Below are positions 54,333 to 56,018 of a stretch of DNA of 56,018 bases, in pieces. Numbering within the stretch: the first letter of the stretch is position 1; each line of letters begins with the position of its first letter. Under the pieces are notes generated by a model. The model searched no databases and had not been told where the DNA came from. It saw only the letters and a list, made by a program, of their open reading frames with translations. Made by a program: the position numbers and the translations under genes. The DNA comes from Mangrovicoccus sp. HB161399 (GTDB lineage Bacteria > Pseudomonadota > Alphaproteobacteria > Rhodobacterales > Rhodobacteraceae), in the NCBI RefSeq assembly GCF_013184745.1, contig NZ_JAATVU010000036.1:1-56018 (forward strand), written 5' to 3'.

Positions 54333-54350
54333 CCGCCCTACGCAAGCGCG

Positions 54351-54424
54351 GTCCGTTCGTCTATCGGTTAGGACGCCAGGTTTTCAACCTGGAAAGAGGG
54401 GTTCGATTCCCCTACGGACTGCCA
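54351..54424 (+). tRNA. tRNA-Glu(UUC)
   Basis: A complete cloverleaf with anticodon TTC in loop TTTTCAA, acceptor GTCCGTT/ACGGACT, T-arm AGGGGTTCGATTCCCCT and encoded CCA. The DNA immediately downstream changes character, so the 3' end may serve as an integration site. Confidence 0.95.
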
Positions 54425-54724
54425 AAATATCAGAATATCAATGCGTTACGCACCGGTGGGACATCTCAGTCTTCCGCCGGTTCACTATGCTTTTCGCGAG
54501 AAGTGTCCCACTCGCCTACCCCACAGATGAGATTGCCGCAGCCGGGATTCGCATGTCTTGGTGCTGGCGGAGCTCGCCAAGCTCCTTCCCTCTGCCAGAG
54601 TACCTGATCCCGCTGCCGCGCGGCGATCCGCCGAAACAAGACCCCCCTGCCGAGGGCAAGCGGCAGGGGGGGGGTCGCATGACGACCTACGACCATTCTC
54701 ACAATCAATAATAGGACAGCCGTT
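54425..54724. other. Left edge of an integrated element after tRNA-Glu
   Basis: Holds an inverted repeat of GTGGGACA (54456-54463) with TGTCCCAC (54504-54511) and a strong hairpin at 54640-54675: a 13-bp stem with a G8 run and an 8-base loop. A 74-codon frame from 54487 to 54711 exists but has no recognisable fold. The stretch has more AT-rich patches than the chromosome to its left. Confidence 0.5.
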
Positions 54725-55627
54725 ATGACATATCATAGCGCCATCGGGTTCGAGACTCAATCGCAAGTTCCAACCAACAATCTCGGCCTCGCCCTGAGCT
54801 ATGCAAGGATGGGCATCCCGGTCTTTCCCGCCAAGGACGGCTCGACCAAGGACAGGAACGGCAAGGCTGACCGGCGGCCATGGACCAAGCGCGGGCATCT
54901 CGACGCCACAATGGACGAGGAGCAAATCTCGCGGTGGTGGACACGCCACCCCTCTGCCGTCCCTGCTCTGCCAATGGGAGCGGCCAGCGGACTCGCCTGT
55001 CTCGACCTCGACCGCAAGGGTGGCAAGGACGATGTATCGGCGATCCGCGAGGCGCACGGACTCGACGCCGAATCCCCGCCCGATGGTGCAGTGGTGGTCG
55101 AGACGCCAAGTACCGGTCGACATCTGATCTTCGCACATGCCAATGGCGTGACGAATTCGGCGATGCATCTGCCCGAGGGGTGCGATATTCGTGGTGAAGG
55201 CGGCTGGATCGTGGCTCCCGGAGCGATGGATGCCAGAGGCAAGTACAAGGTCCTTTCCGGCGATCTGGAACTGGGGATCATGCTGGACTTGCTCCCGAGC
55301 TTTCCCAAGGTGCTCCGTGCGCCCGAACGCAAGCAAGGCGCGGTCGCGTCGGCACACGGTCACGCGGACATCGATGAGATGAAAGACGCCCTCGGCTACA
55401 TACCGCATGACGGCTCCGAACACCACTGGAGCTCTATTTTGCGCGGTCTCTGCCATGCCACCGGCGGTTCCGAAACCGGGCTGGGTCTCGCCCTCGGCTG
55501 GTCCGCTGTATACGAGGGTTTCTCGATCTCGGAGGTCACCAGCAAATGGCACTCCTACTGCCGCAAACTCGGGACGGTCGAGAACCCGATAACCGAGCGG
55601 ACCATATTCGCCGAGGCGCGCGACTGA
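54725..55627 (+). CDS. Bifunctional primase/polymerase (prim-pol) fragment
   Basis: A 300-residue protein. Residues about 15-195 are an archaeo-eukaryotic type prim-pol domain, with metal-binding acid residues in LACLDLDRKGG and the GRHLIF segment. A primase C-terminal region (about 225-298) contains HHWSSILRGLCHATGG. Full-length relatives on phages and plasmids usually carry a helicase domain after this. Here the protein ends abruptly in EARD-stop at the edge of an IS3-like remnant, so I infer truncation by IS insertion. The ATG at 54725 has an AGGAC ribosome binding site. Confidence 0.8.
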   Translation: MTYHSAIGFETQSQVPTNNLGLALSYARMGIPVFPAKDGSTKDRNGKADRRPWTKRGHLDATMDEEQISRWWTRHPSAVPALPMGAASGLACLDLDRKGGKDDVSAIREAHGLDAESPPDGAVVVETPSTGRHLIFAHANGVTNSAMHLPEGCDIRGEGGWIVAPGAMDARGKYKVLSGDLELGIMLDLLPSFPKVLRAPERKQGAVASAHGHADIDEMKDALGYIPHDGSEHHWSSILRGLCHATGGSETGLGLALGWSAVYEGFSISEVTSKWHSYCRKLGTVENPITERTIFAEARD

Positions 55628-55827
55628 GGTGGCTCCCAAAATCCGGACACCCTGCCAAGCTTGCCGCCAACGAGTACGAGGACTGACAGCTTGGCTGGCA
55701 AACGGAAGAACTACAGCGCGGAGTTCAAGGCGAAGGTGGCCGTGGAGGCGATCAGGGGCGAGATGACGGTCGCCGAGCTGGTGGCGAAGCATGGCGTGCA
55801 TCGGACGGTGGTCAACACCTGGAGCGA

Positions 55828-55861
55828 GGGTCCGCCCGCCACCGGTCCGAGGGCGTGACCC
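55828..55861 (+). repeat. Hairpin element copy 1 with loop GCCACCGGTCCGA
   Basis: Outer arms GGGTC / GACCC and inner arms GCCC / GGGC enclose the 13-nt loop GCCACCGGTCCGA (55838-55850). It lies in a 44-nt segment, 55823-55866. Confidence 0.85.
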
Positions 55862-55949
55862 GAACCCAGGCGATCGAGGGGATGACCGGGGTGATTTCTG
55901 GCAAGGCCGATGCGAAGGCCGCCGGGAAAGAGGGCGAGATCGAGAGTGA

Positions 55950-55983
55950 GCCTGCCCGCGCCACCGGTCCGAGCGGAGCAGGC
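55950..55983 (+). repeat. Hairpin element copy 2 with the same loop and a different stem
   Basis: Outer arms GCCTGC / GCAGGC and inner arms CCGC / GCGG enclose the identical loop GCCACCGGTCCGA (55960-55972). It lies in a 44-nt segment, 55945-55988, that aligns with copy 1 without gaps. Confidence 0.85.
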
Positions 55984-56018
55984 GAACGCACGCCAAGATC
56001 GGCCAGCTGGTGGTGGAA

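Follow-up and report, generated by a model that had tools for sequence, protein, structure and literature searches.

The window, the 56,018-nt stretch of DNA analysed here, ends within an IS3-type orfA that is interrupted by two 44-nt segments with the same loop and different stems, which raises the question of what these segments are and how they came to lie in a transposase gene. The window is a contig ending at 56018, so the remainder of the IS3 element lies outside view; the source genome (G000) is a 7.18-Mb draft in 323 contigs. The features of the interrupted gene are as follows.

55691-55822, plus strand: 5' part of IS3-type orfA, ending at element 1; TTG start at 55691, frame open from 55661
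55823-55866, plus strand: hairpin element 1 (family F1), in orfA sense; covariance model R1 match 55822-55866, 33.7 bits, E 8.2e-7; empty site in L251
55838-55850, plus strand: loop of element 1, 13 nt, GCCACCGGTCCGA, read directly in the window
55867-55944, plus strand: middle part of orfA, flanked by both elements; aligned to L251 and L253
55945-55988, plus strand: hairpin element 2 (family F1), in orfA sense; covariance model R1 match 55944-55988, 48 bits, E 1.1e-10; empty sites in L253 and L251
55960-55972, plus strand: loop of element 2, 13 nt, GCCACCGGTCCGA, read directly in the window
55989-56018, plus strand: continuation of orfA, truncated at the contig end; aligned to L251 and L253

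Two hairpin segments in an IS3-type orfA

Reading of the sequence confirmed that the two segments align without gaps and have AGYGAG, the 13-nt loop and CGAAC in common. All five compensatory changes assigned to the stem pairs 7/38, 8/37, 10/35, 12/32 and 14/30 are present, and the right arm of each segment contains one bulged base. The interrupted gene was correctly named as an IS3-type orfA: the upstream frame at 55661-55822 matches the Pfam family HTH_Tnp_1 with an E of 3.6e-5, just over the cut-off. A Pfam scan of the 25-aa frame of the middle part alone gave no match. No third exact loop exists in the window, as had been judged by eye, and the third match of model R1 there is at chance level (E 0.16).

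Upstream, at 54350-55627, a tRNA-Glu precedes a frame of 300 aa (54725-55627) that we take to resemble a primase/polymerase domain, and then comes the broken IS3. The region may mark the boundary of an integrated element.

Insertion replaces target bases and shifts the frame

Two relatives represent the orfA without one or both segments. L251, from genome G001, is the same IS3 orfA and is empty at both window sites, whereas L253, from contig 306 of G000 and 94% identical to the window IS3 orfA, has the first insert and lacks the second. L251 has an F2-like hairpin (see below) elsewhere in its orfA, upstream of window site 1. Five exact comparisons of filled and empty sites were measured as the length between fixed anchors.

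Window site 1 against L251: net +38 nt
Window site 2 against L253: net +38 nt
L185 against the Sagittula stellata copy: net +38 nt
L226 against the Ruegeria copy: net +37 nt
L232 against the Sagittula sp. P11 copy: net +37 nt; alignment gives the same result for the copies of Frigidibacter and Sulfitobacter

At the window sites the anchors are 45 versus 7 nt apart (site 1) and 51 versus 13 nt apart (site 2), which reproduces the predicted net gain of 38 nt per segment. The placement of both sites at a Lys codon was only roughly right, the homologous residues being W-R-R-Q (site 1) and E-R-L-H or E-K-L-H (site 2). None of the five comparisons shows the target-site duplications that the original prediction proposed to look for; about six target bases are replaced per insertion instead. 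All five measured inserts (+37 or +38) shift the reading frame. Both orientations relative to the host gene occur, and the hairpin of L232 is antisense to its transposase gene. Beyond the element itself the target preference is weak and confined to the left side, with T at -9 in 42%, A or G at -5 and G at -4.

A family of covarying hairpins

A search of the genome and its relatives for the loop between complementary arms revealed abundant further copies. The exact loop GCCACCGGTCCGA occurs 56 times in G000, versus once for the reversed pattern, and 55, 33 and 5 times in G001, G002 and G003, all three counted here as congeneric with G000. Each of the other genomes examined has at most two occurrences, and the six such places inspected lack a good stem. 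A stem score of at least 20 was reached by 74 of the 121 distinct loop contexts, versus 12% with the right arms shuffled; loops without good stems (L005, L035, L049-L054 and most of L118-L197) were excluded as chance, and L198-L223 lay outside the stem scoring. The loop consensus is better written GCCAYYGGTYCRA. The pattern GCCAYHGGTCCGAG, present in 8 of 21 genomes, has 83, 114, 87 and 9 copies in G000, G001, G002 and G003, with the reversed pattern at 0 in each.

The elements are about 43-45 nt long, with a near-constant loop of 13 nt on a stem of about 10 bp that frequently has one bulged base and varies in sequence while keeping its pairing. Their anatomy can be written R-N-Y-GA-stem-loop-stem-GA-R-N-G, in which two terminal pairs covary and GA faces GA as a mismatch. 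We built a gap-free alignment (A2) of 39 elements, omitting 3 of 42 as near-copies and excluding both window copies and their like. It supports 12 pairs, with 96.2% of cells paired versus 76.1% in shuffled controls and a covariation of 0.538 versus 0.153, the inner-pair figures being inflated since rows had to form 9 or more of 10 inner pairs and to have Y-GA and GA-R. Pairing drops to 26-40% in slid registers, and the outermost pair, which lay outside the row selection, occurs as four pair types and holds in 38 of 39 rows. The two terminal pairs, scored at 92 sites whose flanks differ, are formed in fractions of 0.85 and 0.95, versus 0.66 and 0.50 when shuffled.

Two ideas on the origin of the arms were rejected. 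By eye, a few sites had suggested that the element takes the place of the loop in a short inverted repeat of the target; pairing at the 92 sites ends after the terminal pairs, with none above chance beyond them. Copying of the stem arms from nearby DNA was discarded, as arm 9-mers recur within the ±1 kb around their own element at chance level (84 elements, 20 shuffles; left arm 25, shuffles 21-49; right arm 45, shuffles 31-70). In three members (L140:3046-3090, L129:7189-7233 and L205:3400-3444) the loop is GCCAYYGGTTCGA, which contains the GGTTCGA of the tRNA T-loop; here the beginning of the loop recurs in the left arm, which would permit an alternative fold.

Covariance model R1, whose alignment excludes both window copies, recovers the two segments, at E 1.1e-10 for element 2 and 8.2e-7 for element 1. 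The original prediction of a mobile family of small palindromes, or of a recognition site, thus gains support on the side of a family from copy number, covarying stems and exact empty sites. It had also named two outcomes that would speak against it; further copies exist, and the segments are not variants of the normal transposase gene.

Distribution

Model R1 was positive in 53 of 120 Rhodobacteraceae genomes at E<=0.001 and in about 44 at 1e-5; the copy counts per genome are lower bounds, as at most 52 candidates were scored in each. A class-wide sample gave 3 of 190 genomes at E<=1e-5, namely the source genome, another of the Rhodobacteraceae and G457, which lies outside the family. The three equal-score matches of G457 (L387, L389 and L391; E 7e-6), in a genome from another family of Alphaproteobacteria, point to a possible transfer beyond Rhodobacteraceae. 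A stricter pattern is present in 10 of 295 family genomes. Furthermore, a 49-nt query matches 24 plasmid records, of which 15 are from Paracoccus, two from Tritonibacter and two from Mesorhizobium, with single matches in Azospirillum, Limimaricola, Sagittula, Ponticoccus and Alloyangia. As these surveys and plasmid matches show, the hairpin family is centred on Rhodobacteraceae yet found beyond it.

The hairpins sit mainly in transposase genes

For up to three stop-free frames abutting each of 50 elements outside Mangrovicoccus (146 frames), we determined the Pfam matches; L387 was dropped from the 51 listed elements because it left no room for frames. The families matched by the abutting frames (16 + 19, in overlapping batches) are of the transposase, integrase-core or helix-turn-helix (HTH) kind, four of the HTH families not being transposase-specific, with the exception of one weak Xre-like HTH (E 8e-4). 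Single scans of 18 abutting frames yielded transposase-type matches for 10 and no Pfam match for 8. As a control, 57 frames at distances of mostly 0.7-1.5 kb from the element (0.26 kb in L387) were taken in 29 of these loci, after 6 of 63 had been omitted as too close to an element. These frames match 35 Pfam families, and among the 25 families listed 19 are non-transposase.

Thus, among nameable host genes, the hairpins sit mainly in transposase genes. They occur in several unrelated insertion sequence families, whose names beyond Pfam were judged from translations. In L360, an orfA cut by the hairpin is followed by a full orfB-like frame. L417, L420 and L422 are perhaps exceptions to the transposase context. 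Separately, a good-stem hairpin at L233:1485-1528 lies in what appears by eye to be a gene-transfer-agent gene, a frame with no Pfam match, and may fall outside the transposase rule.

IS5 copies with many inserts

Relative to the intact IS5 transposase of Thioclava nitratireducens (L283), the inserts of the IS5 copies in these genomes comprise 66 distinct ones that map to about 15 positions; the most in one copy is 12 (L325). Besides F1, the inserts comprise at least three loop families, F2-F4.

F2: ..GAGGAGG..GGTCCGGGGGACC..CCGACGA, 40-45 nt
F3: ..GAGACGGGACCGTGGCGCC.., 40-45 nt
F4: CCCCTCTCGGGCATTG.., 40-45 nt

These families are carried by the IS5 copies L287, L301, L099 and L325 at reference positions 160, 302, 359, 395, 469, 645 and 792. 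By eye, F2 and F3 appear to have a YGA..GAR foot in common. At position 216 (L094, L099, L325 and L309), an F1 form with GTTGCC..GGCGAC is nested within another F1 element, immediately following its loop. Inserts at positions 432, 645, 837 and 880 are antisense.

Site homoplasy was counted on a tree of 42 IS5 copies; the set for tree and omega had 9 of 61 rows dropped as near relatives or, for L315/L253 and L240/L325, as the same contig stretches. The counts are rough, an earlier IS5 tree having strong support on 8 of 46 inner branches, and amount to at least 7 changes at sites 432 (15/29 filled), 792 (9/32 filled) and 518 (7/31 filled) and at least 6 at site 53 (8/25 filled).

Such a pattern could arise if the insertions were old, inherited with the insertion sequence and shuffled among its copies by recombination, the hairpin itself having little or no present mobility. 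Among the genomes of the genus, the stem at a given IS5 site is mostly conserved across divergent copies, the second stem of the window IS3 is common to its relative in G003, and the copies of one insertion sequence are many and similar on a poorly resolved tree, all of which agrees with that explanation; recombination among copies could explain part of the homoplasy. Against it, the flanks are lineage-specific up to the insert: filled pairs have a relative flank divergence of 0.80 in the range of 4-15 nt, rising to 0.93-1.00 farther out, so that long gene-conversion tracts were rejected, there being no homogenised flank beyond about 15 nt. By eye, the elements at one site differ less than their flanks. 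Moreover, site 432 holds three different stems, one of them in a MAG of another lineage (L178), the same IS5 positions are occupied by different stems and loop families, and the same kind of element occurs in different insertion sequence families. We consider this explanation improbable.

Fate of the filled genes

The IS5 copies L285 and L287, with four inserts each, differ by a dS of 0.56 at an omega of 0.11 over 304 codons, a conservation by which the inserts would be either recent or of little harm. Two other filled IS5 pairs have omega values of 0.74 and 0.61. In the lower insert classes omega has medians of 0.18, 0.15 and 0.16, compared with 0.22 at nine or more inserts per pair. IS5 copies with 4-5 inserts contain 0 stops in the aligned codons, with an amino-acid identity to the reference of 0.87-0.90. 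In addition, an IS1182-like element with one hairpin is found at four loci with a common IS end. These hairpin-bearing copies share that end, and the element was thus already filled when it was copied, most simply by action in trans. Its copies fall into two subgroups that differ by up to one silent and four replacement codons among 34.

Filled transposase genes might keep working if the element acted at the RNA level, through ribosome skipping or mRNA excision, for which phage T4 gene 60 and the byp elements of yeast mitochondria are precedents. The stop-free and well-conserved IS5 copies with 4-5 inserts, the covariation of stems and terminal pairs and the copying of a filled insertion sequence to four loci would all accord with such a role. 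The antisense inserts of L232 and of the four IS5 positions speak against it, as do the higher median omega at nine or more inserts per pair and the excess of replacement over silent codons among the four IS1182-like copies. In 190 elements, departures from pairing are near equal for G.T and A.C, at 33:23 (p 0.23) and 27:22 (p 0.57), and the loop strand thus lacks the G.U excess by which an RNA role was sought. Stems that covary, with departures that show no RNA bias, support the selection on the hairpin that had been postulated. An RNA-level role therefore has a low probability in our judgement, and on small numbers inactivation of the filled gene is favoured over bypass or splicing. Of decay after insertion, the two IS5 pairs and the IS1182-like codons give a thin hint.

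A putative model of mobility

The segments are probably non-autonomous mobile DNA hairpins that insert into insertion sequences and disable them, a movement that we infer from sequence comparison. In this model, the hairpin would be recognised by its shape and loop, as single-stranded DNA or as a cruciform, which fits a stem that drifts in sequence with loop, foot and pairing all retained. The enzyme acting on it would be supplied from elsewhere. The hairpin would parasitise insertion sequences and turn them off, and intact relatives could still spread the filled copies in trans.

Two observations sit uneasily with the model. Identical cores at more than one unrelated site make up 5 of 237 distinct cores, each of the five at two unrelated sites, and this scarcity, together with the site-specific stems of IS5, is odd for free jumping. 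The low omega of L285 versus L287 also fits a harmless insert and counts against the model. Core pairs differing by 1-2 letters number 314, of which 136 are at unrelated sites.

As candidate movers, RAYT, reverse transcriptase and IS91-type transposases were each rejected, being missing from several high-copy genomes. Y1_Tnp (PF01797) was detected in 2 of 16 genomes, with G010 the sole positive among the high-copy genomes tested, and was absent from G000-G003, G065, G085, G021, G041 and G044, drafts that may miss genes. RVT_1 exceeded the cut-off in 3 of 16 genomes, with none in G000, G002, G003, G065 and G085. Y2_Tnp (IS91-type) is present in G000, G001, G010, G044 and G050. It is thus very unlikely that the segments are REP-type repeats moved by RAYT or retro-moved by a reverse transcriptase: size, bulged hairpin and copy number resemble REPs as described in PMC3733652, but the two enzymes have these gaps, the base frequencies contain no GTAG or CGTC foot and the elements lie inside transposase genes rather than in extragenic DNA.

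Relation to known systems

In PMC3733652, REPs are short imperfect hairpins in many copies, with sub-families that differ in stem and loop; their loops are mostly short and they are mainly extragenic, the CGTC class, without a known transposase, is mostly alphaproteobacterial, and Rickettsia palindromic elements are named as well. Our family is likewise a short imperfect palindrome in many copies, but it differs from REPs so described by a constant 13-nt loop with variable stems, by an NN-GA..GA-NN foot without a GTAG or CGTC tag (A/G, N and Y before GA, and R, N and G after, at 92 sites), and by lying in transposase frames, as seen from abutting frames and empty sites, with about six target bases replaced.

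Like MITEs, the hairpins are small, non-autonomous, gene-less repeats; however, they are too short and make no target-site duplication at the five sites. With the bypassing elements of T4 gene 60 and the mitochondrial byps they have in common hairpins of a few tens of nucleotides in reading frames, whereas the present hairpins occur in both orientations and their filled genes give a hint of decay. Rickettsia palindromic elements are larger and enter many kinds of genes, often in frame. They resemble our family as short palindromic repeats within genes and differ in that the hairpins sit mainly in transposase genes and that the measured inserts of +37 and +38 shift the frame.

An Rfam search of the window end gave no match up to E 1, and two matches from five loci fall well short of the gathering score, BASRCI153 (25.5 versus 137 bits) and snaR-A (23 versus 98 bits), the latter overlapping elements in L168. 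The open-access literature yielded no report related by title for the 11-letter loop core in four spellings and, among the papers listed, no description of the family by wording. These searches gave no named family for the hairpins; REP repeats come closest among described elements, but the family departs from them in foot, place and transposase.

Implications

Tentatively, and with a probability well below that of the mobile hairpin itself, the segments may belong to a system recognised by shape that homes repeatedly to fixed sites in transposase genes and disarms insertion sequences, an immune-like hyperparasite in which the loop families would have the GA foot and one enzyme in common. To our knowledge, few bacterial processes stop insertion sequences. 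A 44-nt hairpin that sits mainly in transposase genes and recurs at equal positions of divergent insertion sequence lineages, with up to twelve related inserts in some copies, suggests either a hyperparasite of transposons or a silencing process. It leads to the question of how a hairpin whose only marks are a 13-nt loop and a GA/GA foot is mobilised. As members are common in Rhodobacteraceae and easily searched for, the proposal is testable.
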